A stretch of 33,811 nucleotides of DNA. Origin: a virus. The notes beneath the pieces were generated by a model, which saw only the letters and a program-made list of their open reading frames with translations, did not search any database and was not told the origin of the DNA. The stretch covers positions 1 to 33,811 of the IMG/VR virus record IMGVR_UViG_3300048589_001555. One strand, 5' to 3'. A program made the position numbers and the translations under genes. Every line of letters starts with the position of its first letter. Positions within the stretch are counted from its first letter, which is position 1. Below, in pieces: positions 1 to 33,656 of the stretch.

Positions 1-366
1 TCAATAGAAGCTACTGCGTTTCAATAAGCATTTGTGATTCTGCAAATTCGATTTCAACGATTTTATCGTATCGATAATGATGAGTCGCTCGTAAGCAGTA
101 CAGTCAGACAGAATCATGGTTATTTCCTGACTTGCTATTTTTGGAGCACTCTTTATCTGCTCGGAAAGCAACCAATCACCTGGAATTTCCAATGCGTTTG
201 CTATTAGGACAAAGGTTTCCAGGCTCATAATTTTACAACCGCTTTCTATATAGCTAATGTAGGTAGGAGATTTATCGATCAACTCCGAAAGCATCGCTTG
301 AGATAATTGGTTTCGCTTACGAATTTCTTTAATTCTTCGACCAATTTTGCAGTAATTCAGACCCAT
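1..366 (-). CDS. XRE-family helix-turn-helix repressor
   Basis: A 121-residue cytoplasmic DNA-binding protein with an N-terminal Cro/CI-type helix-turn-helix at about residues 9-63. The pattern 'IGRRIKEIRKRNQLSQ...SPTYISYIESG...LETFVLIANAL' is typical of XRE repressors. The C-terminal half is short, predicted helical and not recognised, so there is no LexA-like protease domain. The ATG at 366 is chosen over an upstream in-frame TTG at 396 because GGAGGT (373-378) sits 6-8 bases before it. It is divergent from the recombinase operon, as expected for an immunity repressor controlling integration and excision functions. The stop codon occupies bases 1-3, so the gene is complete. Confidence 0.85.
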   Translation of the reverse strand: MGLNYCKIGRRIKEIRKRNQLSQAMLSELIDKSPTYISYIESGCKIMSLETFVLIANALEIPGDWLLSEQIKSAPKIASQEITMILSDCTAYERLIIIDTIKSLKSNLQNHKCLLKRSSFY

Positions 367-385
367 AGATTGAACCTCCGAAAAT

Positions 386-414
386 GTTATGTTCAATTAT
401 GGACTTTTAATCAA
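386..414 (-). promoter_or_regulatory. Candidate promoter of the XRE repressor
   Basis: On the minus strand a TTGATT -35 (409-414) and CATAAC -10 (386-391) are separated by 17 bases, placing the start point just ahead of the GGAGGT of the repressor gene. Both hexamers deviate from consensus, so this is tentative. Confidence 0.35.
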
Positions 415-579: not shown

Positions 580-1188
580 GTGCCTGAATTGATTGAAGAA
601 AAAGAGAAAATCGGACTAGAAGTAATGCCTTCATTCGATTTTTCATTTTCGTGTGACAAAGAGCAAGAGCTGCGCATCTTGGAGCACAGGGCATGGCTTA
701 AAAGTATTAAGCGAGAAATGCCATTGCCAAAGCACCATTTTAAGGTCGCAATATACATTCGATATTTCAACCAGACGAAATATGATGATTACATCTCCTT
801 TCATAAGAAACAATTCTCTGATACGATTGCCCTTTGCCCAAATTGGGAATTCGTTGGATTCTATGTGGATGAAGGCGCTACCGCGCCTAATATGGAAACT
901 GCGCAGGCATGGTCACGGCTGTTAAACGACTGCAATGCTGGCAAAGTTGATTTAATTATCACTCAAAAAGCAAGCAATGTCTCCAAAAAAATCACGGAAA
1001 TAAGCTTCTGTTCAAGAATTCTTGCTGCGCTTGAAAAACCGGTTGGGATATATTTTATATCTGAAGACATCTATACTTTGGCATCATACTATCAGAGTGA
1101 TTTAAAAGACTCGTTTTTTCTTCCCTATCCCGATTGGTCTGTTCTGCCGGATGACAATTCTCAAGAGATAGGGACACTGCATGATTGA
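580..1188 (+). CDS. Serine-recombinase-like protein lacking catalytic residues
   Basis: About 202 residues. The central part aligns by eye with the resolvase domain of the next gene: 'VAIYIRYFNQ' against 'VAVYARVSTD', 'PNWEFVGFYVDEG' against 'PNWILVKIYADEG', and 'DCNAGKVDLIITQ' against 'DCRAGRIDMILTK'. The nucleophilic serine is Phe (about residue 63). The SRFARN arginines are Asn and Lys (about 133 and 136), and the conserved Arg after the DEG loop is Ala (about 108). It cannot cleave DNA by the known mechanism; a regulatory or structural partner role is inferred. GGAGG (570-574) lies 5 bases before GTG 580, which favours that start over ATG 568, whose own codon overlaps the SD. The 3' end overlaps the active recombinase by 8 bases. 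The N-terminal 50 residues are not recognised. Confidence 0.75.
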   Translation: MPELIEEKEKIGLEVMPSFDFSFSCDKEQELRILEHRAWLKSIKREMPLPKHHFKVAIYIRYFNQTKYDDYISFHKKQFSDTIALCPNWEFVGFYVDEGATAPNMETAQAWSRLLNDCNAGKVDLIITQKASNVSKKITEISFCSRILAALEKPVGIYFISEDIYTLASYYQSDLKDSFFLPYPDWSVLPDDNSQEIGTLHD

Positions 1189-3076
1189 TCAGATAAAAAA
1201 GCAGAAAGCTGAAGAACAAAAGGAAAAAGTACGTAAAAGGATTAAAACGCAGATTGATCCGAATACGTATGCTTTCATTCCAGCAAAAAAACAAGTTGAT
1301 TATTATGATAATGACATTCAACAACGCGTTGCAGTTTATGCTCGTGTTTCAACAGACAATATCCAGCAAACTTCATCATATGAGCTTCAGAAAAAGTATT
1401 ACGAAGATTTCGTTATACACCATCCGAACTGGATACTAGTAAAAATCTATGCCGATGAGGGTACTAGCGGAACATCCACTGCGAACCGGGATGAGTTTAA
1501 CAAAATGATAGCAGATTGCCGCGCTGGAAGGATAGACATGATTTTAACGAAGAGTGTTTCGCGTTTTGCGAGAAATGTCGTTGATTGCATTGGTATGGTT
1601 AGAACTCTTTCCGATTTACCGCATCCTGTTGGAGTCTTTTTTGAAAGCGAGTGTATTTTTTCACTTAAGGATGATTCCCAAATGGCGCTTTCTTTTCTGG
1701 CTACAATGGCACAGGAAGAGTCTCATATACGGAGCCGAAGCATGGAGACATCACTTCGTATGCGACTTGATGGCGGGCTGCCGTTAACGCCGAAACTTCT
1801 CGGCTACTCGCATGACACGGAAGGAAATCTTGTCATCAACCCGGATGAAGAGGCAACCGTTAAGCTTATATTCTCCATGTATCTCTATGGCTATTCAACA
1901 TCAGAAATTGCTACAACTCTTACTGAACTGGGTCGAAAAACATACCTAGGCAATATAACTTGGTCATCAAATTCAGTAGTGCAAGTATTACGAAACGAAC
2001 GTCACTGCGGCGATGTGTTGACGAGGAAAACTTTCACACCGAACTATTTAAATCATAAGGCAAAGAAAAACAGAGGGGATAGACCGCAGAGCATTTATCG
2101 GAATCATCATGAAGCCATCGTGTCAAGAGATGATTTTATCGCTGTGCAGCGACTTCTTGAAAATGCAAAGTATGGTAACAAATCAATTCTACCGGAACTT
2201 CGAGTGATTGACAGTGGTCTTCTCAAGGGATTTGTTATTGTGAACCCCCGCTGGGCGGGATTCAAGTCTACCGATTATTATGATGCTGCAATCAGCATTA
2301 AACCTGACCCGCAGGACCTATGTGAAGATACTAAATGTTTAGATCAAGAGCCAGAGATTCAATTCGAAGCAGAAGCCGGGGCTTTTGACATGCGGGGGTT
2401 TGAGATTACACGTTCGGAGATGTTTGATTCCGTTCATCGACCATACGTCATATTTCAAGACAAAAAAATCAAATTTAGCACTGCATGCATAAGAAAGTTT
2501 GATAAAAATAACCATATTGAGTTACTTGTTGATCCAATAAATATGAAATTTGCTGTCAGAACAATAGGTAAGGACAACAAATATTCAACCGTTTGTTCGA
2601 AACATGTAAATGACCTATATTATCCTAAGGAAATATCTTGTGCTGCATTTATAGATACATTGTTCGAAATATTCGGTTGGAACACAGACCTCAAATATCG
2701 GATATCGGGAGCGTTTTATCAAAAAGACGATGAAATTGTTTTTCTATTTAACATTAATGATGCTGAAGCTTTTATCAAACCAGTAATGCTGGCCATTCGA
2801 GCTGTGGAAAATGATCAAGAAGGGACGCTTGAACCATTGTCGACGTCGGGCAAAAGGGTTCGAGCTGTTCCAGAAGAGTGGGTTCATGCATTTGGCAACC
2901 TGTTTTACACCCATCAGCATATTTTTCCATTATTAGAATCCAAAGAAAGCATGGACTTGAATATTCGAGAGGAAGGGCAATTGTATGAAACAGGGGAGAA
3001 GATTTGCATGACCGGAGTAGATGAACTAAGCGAATTCATAAGTCAAGAGCTGATGAGGGGGAATACTCGAGAATGA
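1181..3076 (+). CDS. Large serine recombinase (site-specific integrase/excisionase)
   Basis: A 631-residue protein. The resolvase domain (about 48-190) keeps the nucleophile Ser57 in 'YARVST', Arg55, Arg103 and 'SRFARN' (127-132). A recombinase domain follows (about 200-330, 'LLGYSHDTEGNLVINPDEEATVK' region). Family members normally continue into a cysteine zinc ribbon and coiled coil. Here no CxxC pairs appear, and residues about 401-580 form a different module that is repeated in the next two genes. It likely catalyses integration and excision of the element by concerted double-strand cleavage and strand rotation. Its start overlaps the preceding gene and its stop overlaps the next start (ATGA), so the operon looks translationally coupled. 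Catalytic assignment is secure; the role of the C-terminal module is unknown. Confidence 0.92.
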   Translation: MIDQIKKQKAEEQKEKVRKRIKTQIDPNTYAFIPAKKQVDYYDNDIQQRVAVYARVSTDNIQQTSSYELQKKYYEDFVIHHPNWILVKIYADEGTSGTSTANRDEFNKMIADCRAGRIDMILTKSVSRFARNVVDCIGMVRTLSDLPHPVGVFFESECIFSLKDDSQMALSFLATMAQEESHIRSRSMETSLRMRLDGGLPLTPKLLGYSHDTEGNLVINPDEEATVKLIFSMYLYGYSTSEIATTLTELGRKTYLGNITWSSNSVVQVLRNERHCGDVLTRKTFTPNYLNHKAKKNRGDRPQSIYRNHHEAIVSRDDFIAVQRLLENAKYGNKSILPELRVIDSGLLKGFVIVNPRWAGFKSTDYYDAAISIKPDPQDLCEDTKCLDQEPEIQFEAEAGAFDMRGFEITRSEMFDSVHRPYVIFQDKKIKFSTACIRKFDKNNHIELLVDPINMKFAVRTIGKDNKYSTVCSKHVNDLYYPKEISCAAFIDTLFEIFGWNTDLKYRISGAFYQKDDEIVFLFNINDAEAFIKPVMLAIRAVENDQEGTLEPLSTSGKRVRAVPEEWVHAFGNLFYTHQHIFPLLESKESMDLNIREEGQLYETGEKICMTGVDELSEFISQELMRGNTRE

Positions 3077-3885
3077 ATAACAGTATCGATGATCGGCCCC
3101 ATAACATTTTAGAAAGTTGCGATTACCCTGCTGATTGTACCGACTCTGAAAACAGGATATGCAGCAATACGCAGATTTCTAAAGATGCAACAGCAACAAC
3201 GTTTCTTCAACTTGAAAAAGAATTTTATGTTCCAGCGGAAAGTAAAAGGGCTCAAATTGATGACGACGTGATCAAACTTGATGGTGAATTTGATTATGAC
3301 GGATATCAAGTGGTTCGACGTGAGTTTTTCGCACATACTAACGAGCCATCAATTGCTTTTAATGATTATAGAATCTCTGTTAATACAGCATGCTTAAATA
3401 AACTTCCTTTGACAGATAATGTACAGGTGCTTGTTAATCAAACCAATAAAATTCTTGCAATCCAACCATGTCAGGAAGAAGAACGCAACTCATTTGCATG
3501 GTGCACCCCTGGAAATGGCAGGAGGAAACCCAAGCAGATTACCTGCAGATTGTTCTTTGCCAAGATATTCACACTAATGAATTGGAACCCTGAGTATCGT
3601 TATAAGCTATTGGGGAAAATCATTCACGCAAATGATAAATATCTTCTGGCATTCGATTTGACAGCGACGGAAGTATATCAACGCGTAACGATTGAAGGAA
3701 AGAGGGCGAAAACATCCCGTACACCCGTATTTCCGGCTGAGTGGCAAAATCAATTTGGGTTGGCTTATAGTGAACACCAAAAATCGATGCAGATCGATAT
3801 TTTTGACGGGTATGCCGTGTATGCCATAAAAAGTAATGTGATTTCAAAAATTGAAATTGATTCAGTGAAGGATAAGCGGACTTAA
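3073..3885 (+). CDS. Free-standing copy of the recombinase C-terminal module
   Basis: A 270-residue protein with no catalytic domain. Residues about 71-236 resemble recombinase residues 401-580: 'GEFDYDGYQVVRREFF' against 'GAFDMRGFEITRSEMF', 'ISVNTACLNK' against 'IKFSTACIRK', 'VQVLVN' against 'IELLVD', 'MNWNPEYRYKLLGK' against 'FGWNTDLKYRISGA', and 'FPAEWQNQFGLAYSEHQ' against 'VPEEWVHAFGNLFYTHQ'. The N-terminal 70 residues look disordered. The start overlaps the recombinase stop by 4 bases (ATGA), implying coupled translation in fixed proportion. A DNA-binding or recombinase-partner role, perhaps a directionality factor, is inferred from paralogy and position only. Confidence 0.7.
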   Translation: MNNSIDDRPHNILESCDYPADCTDSENRICSNTQISKDATATTFLQLEKEFYVPAESKRAQIDDDVIKLDGEFDYDGYQVVRREFFAHTNEPSIAFNDYRISVNTACLNKLPLTDNVQVLVNQTNKILAIQPCQEEERNSFAWCTPGNGRRKPKQITCRLFFAKIFTLMNWNPEYRYKLLGKIIHANDKYLLAFDLTATEVYQRVTIEGKRAKTSRTPVFPAEWQNQFGLAYSEHQKSMQIDIFDGYAVYAIKSNVISKIEIDSVKDKRT

Positions 3886-3927: not shown

Positions 3928-4344
3928 ATGAATGTGCAGAAAGAACTCGTGGCGGCCTTAACTATAGACTTAAAAAGGAACAGATTCCGAATTCATAAGC
4001 ATACTTTACATGGACTTGGCGATCCCAGGTACATTCAATTCCTTATCAATCCTGAAGATGGTTATATTGCAATACTAGGGAGTGACAAGCCTTTGGTGGG
4101 GGGGACAGCGAATAAGGTCACTCTAGATAATGCAAACAGCAAAAAATCTGTGGAGTTTTACAGCGCAAACTTGCTTAATGGAATTTTCAAAATCTTTGGT
4201 AAGCTGGACTATCATTATAGTTATCGCTTAAGCGGTGAAATCGACCAAGTGAACCGAGTTGCGTATTATTCCATGAAAACGCTACAGAAAAATGGTCGGA
4301 GTGAAGTGGAGAATGGCGATGAAATTCAGACAACTGAAAATTGA
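3928..4344 (+). CDS. Second short paralogue of the recombinase C-terminal module
   Basis: A 138-residue protein. ATG 3928 is chosen because GGAGG (3914-3918) lies 9 bases upstream; an in-frame TTG at 3898 has no such signal. It matches the second half of the module: 'YIQFLINPEDGYIAIL' corresponds to the 'LLVDPINMKFAV' strand pair, and 'LLNGIFKIFGKLDYHYSYRLSGEI' to 'FIDTLFEIFGWNTDLKYRISGAF'. It lacks the N-terminal leader of the preceding gene and the 'PEEW...HQ' tail. Function unknown. Together with its neighbour it forms a three-member paralogous set inside one operon, suggesting a hetero-oligomeric complex on DNA. Confidence 0.65.
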   Translation: MNVQKELVAALTIDLKRNRFRIHKHTLHGLGDPRYIQFLINPEDGYIAILGSDKPLVGGTANKVTLDNANSKKSVEFYSANLLNGIFKIFGKLDYHYSYRLSGEIDQVNRVAYYSMKTLQKNGRSEVENGDEIQTTEN

Positions 4345-5284
4345 TAGCGAGTTTAAGAATCTGATCCGTCCTCTTCGCAAAGAAGAGTATAGCCTACTAG
4401 AATTGAATCTTGTAGCAGATGGGTGCCGTGATCCAATCATTATATGGAATGGGATCATTGTTGATGGGCATAATCGTTATGAAATTTGTAACAGATTGAA
4501 CATTCCCTATTCAGTAATGGAAGTAGAGTTTGAAAGCCGAGAAGCGGCTGTAATTTGGATATGCAGCAATCAGCTCGGAAGAAGAAACATTTCAGAAGAG
4601 ACACGAAAATATTTGATCGGTAGAAAATATGAAGCTGAAAAGTATATCGGAAGCCGAAAAAATACCTTTGGCCACAATCAATACACGAGATCACTCGATA
4701 CCGAAAAAACAGATCAAAATATAGATGACCACGGTTGTGATCAAAAAGAATACTGGCGGCGCACTGCATGGCGGATAGGACATGAGTATCACATATCTTC
4801 AGGAACCGTTCAAAAATATGCAAAATATAGCCAAGCTGTAAGGCTAATTGCTCAAAAAGCGCCTGAGTTAGTTCCACAAATTCTATCGGGCAACTACAAG
4901 ATATCGCATGAAAACGTCGTTGCTCTGTCAATGATGGACGCGAAAGAAGTGCAAAAGTTAAATCGAAAATTCGTGCAAGGAGCAATCCCATATATTCGAT
5001 ATAGTGAATCGCGAAAGGACTTTTCAGATGATATCCCTTGTAAATCGATTGACCAGATTCATGAACCAGCCGCAATAAAAGCTATGCCTGCGTATGATCC
5101 TGATGCCGTAGTTGTATGTCTCACGCTTACAATACCATCTTGGATAAGTTCAATTGAACGAACGAAATCGGCAGCAGACTTAGATATCATTTCCCCTGCT
5201 GCAAAATCAAAGCTTATAGAAGCTTTAGAAGAATTGCAGAGTACGGGGCGGGAGATGCTCGAAACAATAAGAGGAGAGGCTTGA
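4319..5284 (+). CDS. ParB-like N-terminal domain protein
   Basis: About 321 residues from ATG 4319, which has GGAGA (4308-4312) 6 bases upstream; in-frame starts further up overlap the SD or lack one. Residues about 10-85 form a ParB/sulfiredoxin-like domain with 'IIIWNGIIVDGHNRYEIC', the GHxR form of the ParB nucleotide-binding motif, then a helical part 'NISEETRKYLIGRKYEAEK'. A helix-turn-helix-like segment around 'GTVQKYAKYS' follows. The gene overlaps the previous one by 26 bases. ParB-fold proteins on mobile elements can act as CTP-dependent clamps, nucleases or regulators; which applies here is not visible. Being in the recombinase operon suggests DNA organisation or control of excision. 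Confidence 0.75.
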   Translation: MKFRQLKIDSEFKNLIRPLRKEEYSLLELNLVADGCRDPIIIWNGIIVDGHNRYEICNRLNIPYSVMEVEFESREAAVIWICSNQLGRRNISEETRKYLIGRKYEAEKYIGSRKNTFGHNQYTRSLDTEKTDQNIDDHGCDQKEYWRRTAWRIGHEYHISSGTVQKYAKYSQAVRLIAQKAPELVPQILSGNYKISHENVVALSMMDAKEVQKLNRKFVQGAIPYIRYSESRKDFSDDIPCKSIDQIHEPAAIKAMPAYDPDAVVVCLTLTIPSWISSIERTKSAADLDIISPAAKSKLIEALEELQSTGREMLETIRGEA

Positions 5285-6150
5285 TGTCAGATTATAATAT
5301 GTTTGTTCCAAATGTTCATTTTGAACAAATACCAATTAAAAATTTGGTTTCAAATCAAGAATATCAACGAAATCTATCACAACATCATGTTGAAAATGCT
5401 GCTGCGCATTTTGATCTTTATCAAATAAATCCTGTGAAAGTGAGTCGTCGCGACGGGGTTAATTATGTTTTCAATGGGCAGCATACTATAGAGATTGTTG
5501 CACTTATATCCGGATCACGGGAAACACCCATCTGGTGTATGATTTATGACGATCTGAATTATGAGCATGAAGCAGATATATTTGCTAATCAGATGAAGTT
5601 TGTAAGGCCATTGAAACCATATGAAGTTTTCATGGCAAATATAGAGGCAGGAAATGACAAGCAGTTAATCATCAAAGATCTCCTTGAGTCATACTCTCTA
5701 TCACTTGGACAAACTAGAAACTATGGGGTCATTTGCGCAGTCTCAACTGTTGAAGGTATTTACGAACGTTTCGGTTATCATGTCTTGGATCGTACCCTTC
5801 GCCTATGTGTAGGTGCATGGGAAGGTGATATGAATTCGTTGTCCGCAAATTTTCTCAACGGCGTTGCACGACTAGTCATTGCATTTGGCGATTCAATAAA
5901 AGATGATCAGTTTAAAGAAAAAGTCGGATATACATCTGTAAAACAACTTTCACGGACCGCTAAGGAACGTAGGCCGGGGTCACTTGGCTATGCAGAAGCG
6001 ATGCTTGTTGCGTACAATAGAAAATGCAAATTTCCACTTCGTTGGACAAAACTTTATGAAAAGAATCTTGGGACTACAGATGGACTGGATGTGGATATTG
6101 ATTCGCAGGATGTAGATGCGGATGTAATGGATGAAATCGATGATGAATAA
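5284..6150 (+). CDS. ParB-like / DUF6551-type protein
   Basis: A 288-residue protein. The N-terminal part carries 'IPIKNLVSNQEYQRNLSQHHVENAAAHFD', followed by 'YVFNGQHTIEIVAL', a variant ParB-type motif (NGQHT). It resembles the protein at 11965 ('VPLNEICIEQYQR...VDGQHRLCAM') in layout. The C-terminus is acidic (about the last 20 residues, rich in Asp). The start overlaps the previous stop (TGATG), with GGAG (5273-5276) 7 bases upstream. It is the last gene of the recombinase operon. A role in DNA binding or regulation is likely by family, but no specific function is known. The threonine in place of the usual arginine in the motif is worth noting. Confidence 0.7.
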   Translation: MSDYNMFVPNVHFEQIPIKNLVSNQEYQRNLSQHHVENAAAHFDLYQINPVKVSRRDGVNYVFNGQHTIEIVALISGSRETPIWCMIYDDLNYEHEADIFANQMKFVRPLKPYEVFMANIEAGNDKQLIIKDLLESYSLSLGQTRNYGVICAVSTVEGIYERFGYHVLDRTLRLCVGAWEGDMNSLSANFLNGVARLVIAFGDSIKDDQFKEKVGYTSVKQLSRTAKERRPGSLGYAEAMLVAYNRKCKFPLRWTKLYEKNLGTTDGLDVDIDSQDVDADVMDEIDDE

Positions 6151-32306: not shown

Positions 32307-33656
32307 ATGAAGCGTTTACGAAATACGTTTATGGATTTAGCGATTCGTATGATCGGATTTGGGCTGCTCATTGGCATCGTTTTTCCGTTTTTCATGATCC
32401 TGCTTGGAGTGCCAAAAACAATCGCGTTCAGCGGTTTGTTTCTTGCATGCTGCGTTGCCGCAGGTGTGCTCGTCGGTTTCGTGAACATCCTGATTTCTCG
32501 CGTTACGGTGAAGAACAAGTTAACTGTACTGACGACGAAAATGCGGGATGTGAAGGATTCAATTATTATGGTTTCCGAAAATGGCAGGATCGGCGACTGC
32601 AGCGCAGAGCATTGCAGCATTCCTGTCGATACGGATGATGAATTTGGACAGAGTGCGCAGGCCTTCAATGAACTGATCGAATCGTTTGAAAAATCGCTTC
32701 GCATGCTCGATGAAATTAAAACATACACAGCGGCCTTTTCCAGTCAGCTGGACTTAAACACGCTCGCGGAGTATGCACTGGATCGCGTGATGGGTGGTAC
32801 AGGAGCAGATGCTGGCGCAATTTTGATTGAAAACGAAGGCGAGATTGTCGTACTGCATTCCTTCGGCATTCAAGATGCGAAGGAAACAGCAACAGATCCT
32901 CATGTTTTAAGAGCTTTTTCAAAAGGCGAAACCATTACCATCAAGTATCCTGCAGAGATTATTGTGGAAAGCACACTGACGCGATTTCATCCAAATGAAG
33001 TCATCATAGAGCCGGTGAAGTTCAAGAGCGTTCCCCTGGCTGTAATCCTGTTGGCAAAAGCCTCGCCTTTCTGTGCAGAGAACGTGAAACAACTGGCTAT
33101 TTTCACACAGAGCCTCGCCATTGCGCTGCATAACGCTCTGGAGCATGAGCAGCTGCAGAAGCTCGCGGCGCTTGATCCGTTGACGGGTATTTTGAATCGT
33201 CGATTTGGCATGATCCGACTGCGCGAGGAATACTCCCGGTCTGTGCGGCGCAGCGTGCCGCTTGCTGTGCTGATGTTTGACATCGATCATTTTAAGCAAG
33301 TGAATGATACATATGGCCATGTTGTCGGAGACCGAGTTTTGAAAAACATTACGAACTCGATTCGTCAAGGCATTCGGGAAGGCGACATTTTGCTGCGTTA
33401 TGGTGGAGAGGAGTTCATGGTCATACTGCCCGGCGCATCAAAGAACGATGCATTTACGATTGCGGAACGTGTACGTCACATCGTTCGGGAAAGCAAGACA
33501 ACATTTGGAGAGAACCAGATTAGTGTAACAATCAGTGTCGGCCTTGACTCCATGCCGGAAACCACGATCAGCGACGAACAGGAGTTGATTACGAACTCCG
33601 ACGAAGCGCTATACCGCTCGAAGAACTCGGGCAGGGATAAAGTTACGATCCACTAA
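32307..33656 (+). CDS. Membrane diguanylate cyclase (TM-HAMP-GAF-GGDEF)
   Basis: A 449-residue protein that makes the second messenger c-di-GMP from two GTP at the membrane. Two hydrophobic segments (about 13-34 and 38-63) precede a HAMP-like linker (65-135), a GAF-like sensor (about 140-277) and the GGDEF domain with 'DPLTGILNRR' (290-299), 'FDIDHFKQVND' (324-334) and active-site 'GGEEF' (366-370). The inhibitory site RxxD is present ('REGD', 357-360), so product inhibition is expected. AGGAG precedes the ATG. It is followed by a strong terminator. Most likely a chromosomal gene, not phage cargo. Confidence 0.95.
   Translation: MKRLRNTFMDLAIRMIGFGLLIGIVFPFFMILLGVPKTIAFSGLFLACCVAAGVLVGFVNILISRVTVKNKLTVLTTKMRDVKDSIIMVSENGRIGDCSAEHCSIPVDTDDEFGQSAQAFNELIESFEKSLRMLDEIKTYTAAFSSQLDLNTLAEYALDRVMGGTGADAGAILIENEGEIVVLHSFGIQDAKETATDPHVLRAFSKGETITIKYPAEIIVESTLTRFHPNEVIIEPVKFKSVPLAVILLAKASPFCAENVKQLAIFTQSLAIALHNALEHEQLQKLAALDPLTGILNRRFGMIRLREEYSRSVRRSVPLAVLMFDIDHFKQVNDTYGHVVGDRVLKNITNSIRQGIREGDILLRYGGEEFMVILPGASKNDAFTIAERVRHIVRESKTTFGENQISVTISVGLDSMPETTISDEQELITNSDEALYRSKNSGRDKVTIH

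Follow-up and report, generated by a model that had tools for sequence, protein, structure and literature searches.

The choice of direction by serine integrases is a central question, both in phage biology and for genome-engineering tools. Serine recombinases usually dimerize through helix E, which follows the catalytic core. For large serine integrases (LSIs) of known structure, it has been proposed that a coiled coil in the zinc domain mediates the selective pairing of attP with attB, and a recombination directionality factor (RDF) is required for excision (PMC3783163). The factor phiC31 gp3 is reported to bind through the zinc domain (PMC5814800). That domain is missing from the integrase discussed here, which is encoded by a phage of gut bacteria, in a 33,811-base IMG/VR virus record (IMGVR_UViG_3300048589_001555) called the window below. 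The integrase gene (ORF2) overlaps an upstream gene (ORF1) for a serine recombinase core that has lost its catalytic residues. With a probability of about 0.6, the ORF1 protein is a pseudo-recombinase dedicated to the ORF2 integrase, which it would regulate as a partner without catalytic activity. The features of the gene pair are:

580..1188, plus strand: ORF1, catalytically dead serine recombinase core (202 amino acids (aa) from GTG 580; 206 aa from ATG 568)
754..777, plus strand: ORF1 residues 63-70, YIRYFNQT, replacing the YxRVST nucleophile motif (from homologue motif counts)
958..990, plus strand: ORF1 residues 131-141, ITQKASNVSKK, replacing the active ITKSVSRFARN-type motif
1181..1188, plus strand: 8-nt start/stop overlap of ORF1 and the LSI gene (from the sequence)
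1181..3076, plus strand: ORF2, LSI of 631 aa (Resolvase domain, aa 50-189; Recombinase domain, aa 221-327)

The overlap reads ATGATTGA. ORF1 residues are numbered from ATG 568. GTG 580, the start given in the preliminary description of the locus, is probably preferred, as it is preceded by a better site (GGAGGGG) and is shared with the nearest relative (L003).

A serine recombinase core without catalytic residues

The preliminary description, drawn from the sequence alone, had aligned the first gene with the resolvase domain of the second and had reported the loss of the catalytic residues. Both observations are borne out. ORF1 matches the ORF2 catalytic domain in BLASTP (E 4e-19, 30% over 114 residues), and the nucleophile Ser57 of ORF2 corresponds to Phe67, the two arginines of the SRFARN motif to Asn137 and Lys140, and the arginine after the DEG motif to Ala112. 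Relatives retain the gene pair together with these replacements. Among the 95 distinct ORF1 proteins, 8 incomplete or broken ones were dropped and 87 full-length homologues aligned. None of the 87 has Ser at the nucleophile position, which is occupied by Phe (79), Tyr (7) or Trp (1). The equivalent of R68 is Asn in 85, that of R71 is Lys in 59 (Arg in 19, Ser in 6, Gln in 2, Asn in 1), and that of R45 is Ala in 70, Ser in 16 and Asn in 1. Tyr63 (86/87), Arg65, the counterpart of gamma-delta Arg8 (87/87), and Asp101, the equivalent of D36 (87/87), are retained, and there are new invariant or nearly invariant residues, namely Met109 (87/87), Lys134 (87/87) and Gln133 (85/87). The lost catalytic residues have been exchanged for new, fixed ones. 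The YIRYFNQT motif is present in 77 of 92 distinct homologues, with Tyr/Phe variants in 11 and 4 unreadable by the pattern; these motif counts are biased towards the patterns of the ORF1-baited scans ([AG][IV]YIRYFN and IITQK[VA][SK]N for genomes, [IV]YIRYFN and YF[IV]SEDI for viral contigs). Searches baited with the LSI or ORF3, and a scan of 400 genomes with a profile, are free of this bias and are given below.

By core sequence and fold, ORF1 belongs to the serine recombinase superfamily; lacking the Ser nucleophile and most of the active-site Arg, it is not an active member. The match to the Pfam Resolvase family (PF00239) is slightly below the cut-off (E 1e-4, 22.9 bits against 23.3), and a profile of 71 ORF1 sequences finds PDB entry 3g13 with E 2e-15. 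The AlphaFold2 model, built from the same number of sequences, has a mean predicted local distance difference test (pLDDT) score of 75. It contains a new N-terminal helix (31-46), the resolvase core (58-170; 10-residue means 82-96), and beyond the core only a helix at 174-178, followed by a low-confidence tail. VIA-align superimposes residues 55-171 of the model on 3g13 with Z 15.6 (109 residues at 2.4 A), and the model on gamma-delta resolvase (1gdt) with Z 9.3 and 2.9 A over 96 residues. The best structural matches stop where helix E starts, and a helix-E counterpart is also missing from the alignment with ORF2 and its homologues. ORF1 ends before this helix and is therefore not a subunit of the resolvase dimer type, in which a long helix E follows the core. 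A canonical helix-E heterodimer with ORF2 is thus unlikely. The proteins are acidic (median isoelectric point 5.2 for 85 ORF1 proteins), and neither the Pfam search nor the model revealed a recognisable DNA-binding domain beyond the core, so that direct DNA binding is unlikely.

ORF1 is under strong selection at the protein level, judging from substitution rates and conservation. Pairwise dN/dS was calculated by the NG86 method for pairs with usable dS, which excluded most of the 116 pairs because of saturation at silent sites; those that remain are not independent. The median is 0.069 for ORF1 (35 pairs), compared with 0.024 for the LSI catalytic domain (44 pairs) and 0.081 for the remainder of that protein (28 pairs). 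Nineteen alignment columns are invariant among 71 homologues. Random decay or frameshifts, named beforehand as the outcome that would speak against a functional partner, were seen only where the entire operon is broken. Decay of ORF1 is ruled out by the fixed replacements, dN/dS and intact frames.

Linkage of ORF1 to one integrase clade

An LSI gene adjoins ORF1 for 84 of the 95 distinct proteins. The two genes overlap by 8 nt in 61 cases and by 4 nt in 12 (73 of the 84), and are differently spaced in 11, including one broken locus (L073). With the exception of this broken locus, natural in-frame fusions of ORF1 and LSI were not found among the ORF1 loci. Where an adjacent LSI is absent (11 cases), the locus runs off the contig (L063, L070, L072), ORF1 lies within about 170 nt of the contig end (L065, L069), or the region is rearranged or decayed (L044, L049, L056, L071, L074, L075).

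In an LSI tree of 116 rows, all 73 LSIs with ORF1 fall into a single group, every member of which is accompanied by ORF1 (support of 100 in the Shimodaira-Hasegawa-like approximate likelihood ratio test). Searches with LSI or ORF3 baits yielded two sets of distinct LSIs with room upstream, which have contigs in common. ORF1 was found upstream of all LSIs scoring above 300 with the profile of the LSI C-terminal domain (22/22 and 19/19) and of none scoring 300 or less (0/19 and 0/19); a further 4 and 2 LSIs had no room upstream. Every examined locus with an intact integrase of this clade also has ORF1. In the profile scan, 12 of the 400 genomes, all sampled from a single family, have ORF1 (at least 267 bits), with all other matches at 93 bits or below. 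Where hosts of the 67 genome loci are named, most of them are Clostridia (such as Oscillibacter, Flavonifractor, Anaerotignum, Oribacterium and Angelakisella). A few metagenome-assembled genomes (MAGs) with ORF1 loci are labelled Porphyromonadaceae or Paludibacteraceae, possibly as a result of binning errors.

The operon around the pair in the window comprises the following further genes:

1..396, minus strand: XRE/Cro-type regulator, divergent from the operon (HTH_3, E 3e-12)
3073..3885, plus strand: ORF3, stand-alone paralogue of the C-terminal domain of the LSI (profile of this domain matches the homologues with about 90-100 bits)
3928..4344, plus strand: ORF4, smaller protein related to that domain (same profile, 25-38 bits in some loci)
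4292..5284, plus strand: ParB-like operon protein (phrog_21315, E 1e-10, function unknown)
5281..6150, plus strand: DUF6551, ParB-like partition protein (PF20188, E 1e-32; phrog_1033, E 5e-13)

The product of 4292..5284 is presumably ParB-like, a label that we take from gene context. The sister clade of LSIs has the same operon order (XRE, LSI, ORF3, ORF4, ParB-like, DUF6551) minus ORF1. Among loci with room, ORF3, ParB-like and DUF6551 genes are present in 23/23 of the sister clade, and in 45/45, 44/45 and 44/45, respectively, of the ORF1 clade; the XRE gene precedes the LSI in 19/19 sister-clade and 40/47 ORF1-bearing loci. Since all the other genes of the operon are retained in the sister clade, ORF1 looks like an addition to an operon that was already there, with a single gain as the simplest course, although on the tree alone it may instead have been lost from the sister clade. 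In a tree of catalytic domains, all 35 sampled ORF1 rows group together (support 100/100) at the end of a very long stem (length 2.9), beside the LSIs of the ORF1 clade but without a firm position. ORF1 is likely to have arisen by duplication of the domain of the neighbouring LSI.

An integrase family without zinc ribbon

ORF2 has the catalytic and Recombinase domains of an LSI (PF00239, E 6e-23; PF07508, E 1e-22) and keeps the Ser and Arg residues of the active site: Tyr53, Arg55, Ser57, Arg103, Arg128 and Arg131 are invariant across 66 aligned LSIs. It is not a canonical zinc-ribbon LSI. Pfam gives no zinc-ribbon match up to E 1 (the coiled coil itself was not searched for), and a Cys pattern after the Recombinase domain is found in 0/73 LSIs of the ORF1 clade, 0/26 near and 0/20 far relatives, compared with 77/78 other LSIs from the same loci. 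This pattern is the wider version, a stricter one having matched only 3 of 132 control LSIs (redundant sequences included). In the model of ORF2 (mean pLDDT 73.7), the catalytic and Recombinase domains have matches of known structure and the C-terminal domain is beta-rich; the first two domains dominate the match list, which barely samples the part beyond residue 331. VIA-align with 9dxh gives Z 14.7 over 269 residues, at a root-mean-square deviation of 16.4. As the profile of the C-terminal domain matches ORF3 and, in some loci, ORF4, the operon encodes separate proteins related to each end of the integrase.

Dead cores are also found upstream of other members of this family. Among all loci gathered, we surveyed distinct LSIs with at least 1.1 kb ahead of the catalytic domain. 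None of 143 zinc-ribbon LSIs is preceded by a dead core (141 have nothing, 2 a Ser-bearing fragment). For the 152 LSIs with the C-terminal domain of the ORF2 family, the counts are 87 with ORF1, 7 with a different core that is wholly or partly dead, and 58 with none; 3 further LSIs, in neither class, have no dead core. Two of the 7 (L268 and L379) represent a single genomic site, leaving 6 sites. The types are that of L114 (Subdoligranulum variabile plasmid OY725878) and L267, that of L268, that of L222 and L286, and that of L227, and all are much diverged from ORF1. L222 (1412-2577) and L227 (2452-3814; identical to L279) have two degenerate resolvase cores in tandem ahead of an LSI of 750-770 aa. 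The second L222 core is common to L286, and both keep the Ser without R8 and R71. PF00239 matches the L222 cores with E 4e-10 and 1e-7, and the L268 core with 4e-15. The two L227 proteins have no Resolvase match; they resemble each other (1e-16) and, by hhalign, LSIs (3e-6 and 1e-4, at probabilities of 88% and 57%). In viral contigs, relatives of the L268 core were not found, and those of the second L227 core only on the same contig. In the most distant LSI group, the profiles used recognise ParB or DUF6551 genes in 0 of 9 loci with room. As L222 and L227 belong to this group and have dead cores nevertheless, dead cores go with the LSI and not with those genes. Other distant LSIs (L214, L216, L221, L224-L226, L228-L231) have, instead of a dead core, a P-loop ATPase gene directly upstream, which we assume to be RepA/DnaB-like.

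What looks like a mirror image of ORF1 occurs in an element of about 19-20 kb (L237-L247), which is shared at about 95-98% identity by Angelakisella, Flavonifractor, a Dysosmobacter MAG and Clostridiales CCNA10 (approximately 369.3-388.2 kb of contig C6 in genome G002, with counterparts in G001, G004 and G005; boundaries approximate). The ORF1 operon occupies the centre of this element, and another LSI cluster is located close to the right end (L238; joined G002 coordinates 33028-37185), where LSIs of 555 and 544 aa flank a 301-aa protein that resembles an LSI minus the catalytic domain.

Elsewhere, the window contains structural genes of the HK97 type:

24016: TerL
25987: portal
27333: ClpP-like protease
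28090: capsid

A second DUF6551 gene overlaps a ParB_N gene inside the phage (window 11965-13726), and the right end (32307-33656) encodes a GAF-GGDEF diguanylate cyclase, which would be either cargo or host flank.

Possible roles of ORF1 and comparison with known systems

The conservation of a dead and live pair in relatives points to a separate role for the dead copy, which is probably the control of the live enzyme. The preliminary description had proposed selection for a non-catalytic partner. Selection tied to the active recombinase is upheld by the fixed replacements, dN/dS, overlaps and clade; the heterodimer also suggested there is disfavoured, in its simple resolvase-type form, by the missing helix E. 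ORF1 would, we infer, bind the integrase physically, in about equal amount, through core surfaces other than the helix-E dimer contact, and would set the timing or direction of synapsis assembly, as activator, directionality factor or inhibitor. A family without zinc ribbon would need a solution to synapsis control other than the zinc-ribbon/coiled-coil module with an RDF, and ORF1 could represent a novel type of protein switch acting on such integrases.

Against a regulatory partner, the operon exists without ORF1 in the sister clade, so ORF1 is no general requirement of the LSI family. In favour of such a partner, partial correlation of ORF1 distances is positive with the LSI parts (+0.21 to +0.30) and negative with ORF3 (-0.16), but it is based on 66 linked loci with pairs that are not independent. 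The changes in helix E of ORF2 (window 1727-1786, residues 183-202) between the sister clade and the ORF1 clade (Glu to Arg at 186 and 193, Arg/Lys to Asp at 197) are suggestive only: the top 20-residue window of residues 50-330 is 182-201 (0.545, mean 0.324), but permutation gives p 0.07, and Arg186 is also found in L154, outside the ORF1 clade.

Two specific forms of the regulatory role are about equally probable, each on its own rather unlikely. As an RDF, ORF1 would act on the integrase at attL/attR to bring about excision. It is a small protein encoded next to the integrase gene, and ORF2 lacks the zinc ribbon that, with the coiled coil, controls direction in other LSIs (PMC3783163), so that other directional control is needed. 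However, co-translation would supply ORF1 during integration as well, and the sister-clade operon is the same without it. As an inhibitor or decoy, ORF1 would capture the integrase by its helix E or its core, block active tetramers and keep the prophage quiet. The retention of the core and loss of helix E would fit, as would the position of the acidic helix-E residues of Tn3 resolvase (E124, E128, E132), which face the active-site region of the partner (PMC9943657), the region remodelled in ORF1. On the other hand, a constitutive 1:1 inhibitor requires relief, and the helix-E change in the LSI clade is not significant.

It is less probable again that ORF1 is an architectural subunit in a mixed synaptic complex with active subunits. 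Dead S10A domains of Tn3 resolvase do function at accessory sites II and III (PMC9943657), but such subunits use a DNA-binding domain and helix E, and ORF1 has no recognised form of either. A function apart from the integrase, for example one that involves ORF3/ORF4, a ParB-like protein or a target in the host, has a slightly lower chance still: the operon does encode several further conserved proteins, yet these are equally present without ORF1, which tracks the LSI clade. That ORF1 is only a leader gene setting the level of integrase translation, as the 8- or 4-nt overlap might suggest, is very improbable in view of the dN/dS of 0.07 and the 19 invariant columns.

Returning to ORF1 as a regulatory partner, a dead copy gained, most simply once, in an otherwise unchanged operon offers a clean natural comparison of an integrase with and without its partner. 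A dead serine recombinase partner of an LSI was not found in the open-access (PMC) literature, a scope outside which subscription papers and most preprints fall. An inactive paralogue kept with an active partner, like ORF1, is described for trypanosomatid deoxyhypusine synthase (PMC3663545); the enzyme is unrelated, and activation was demonstrated there, whereas ORF1 may be likened to it by analogy only.

Among serine recombinases, ORF1 shares the alpha/beta core of the catalytic domain (PF00239) with gamma-delta/Tn3 resolvase, TP901-1, TnpX and 3g13. It differs from them in lacking the Ser nucleophile, R45, R68, helix E and a DNA-binding domain, and in adding the N-terminal helix 31-46 and a conserved tail. 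The known RDFs (phiC31 gp3, SPbeta YotN, Bxb1 gp47) are small protein partners of LSIs, as ORF1 probably is; they are not known to be recombinase-like. With the LSIs of phiC31, Bxb1, LI and SPbeta (YokA), ORF2 has the catalytic and Recombinase domains in common; unlike them, it has a beta-rich C-terminal domain in place of the zinc-ribbon motif, and the free relatives ORF3 and ORF4. It is a tentative and somewhat doubtful extension of these comparisons that the locus represents a distinct class of serine integrases, in which synapsis and direction would be controlled by free copies of the integrase's own domains (dead cores such as ORF1 and the others, and C-terminal domains such as ORF3 and ORF4), replacing the zinc-ribbon/coiled-coil module and an unrelated RDF.
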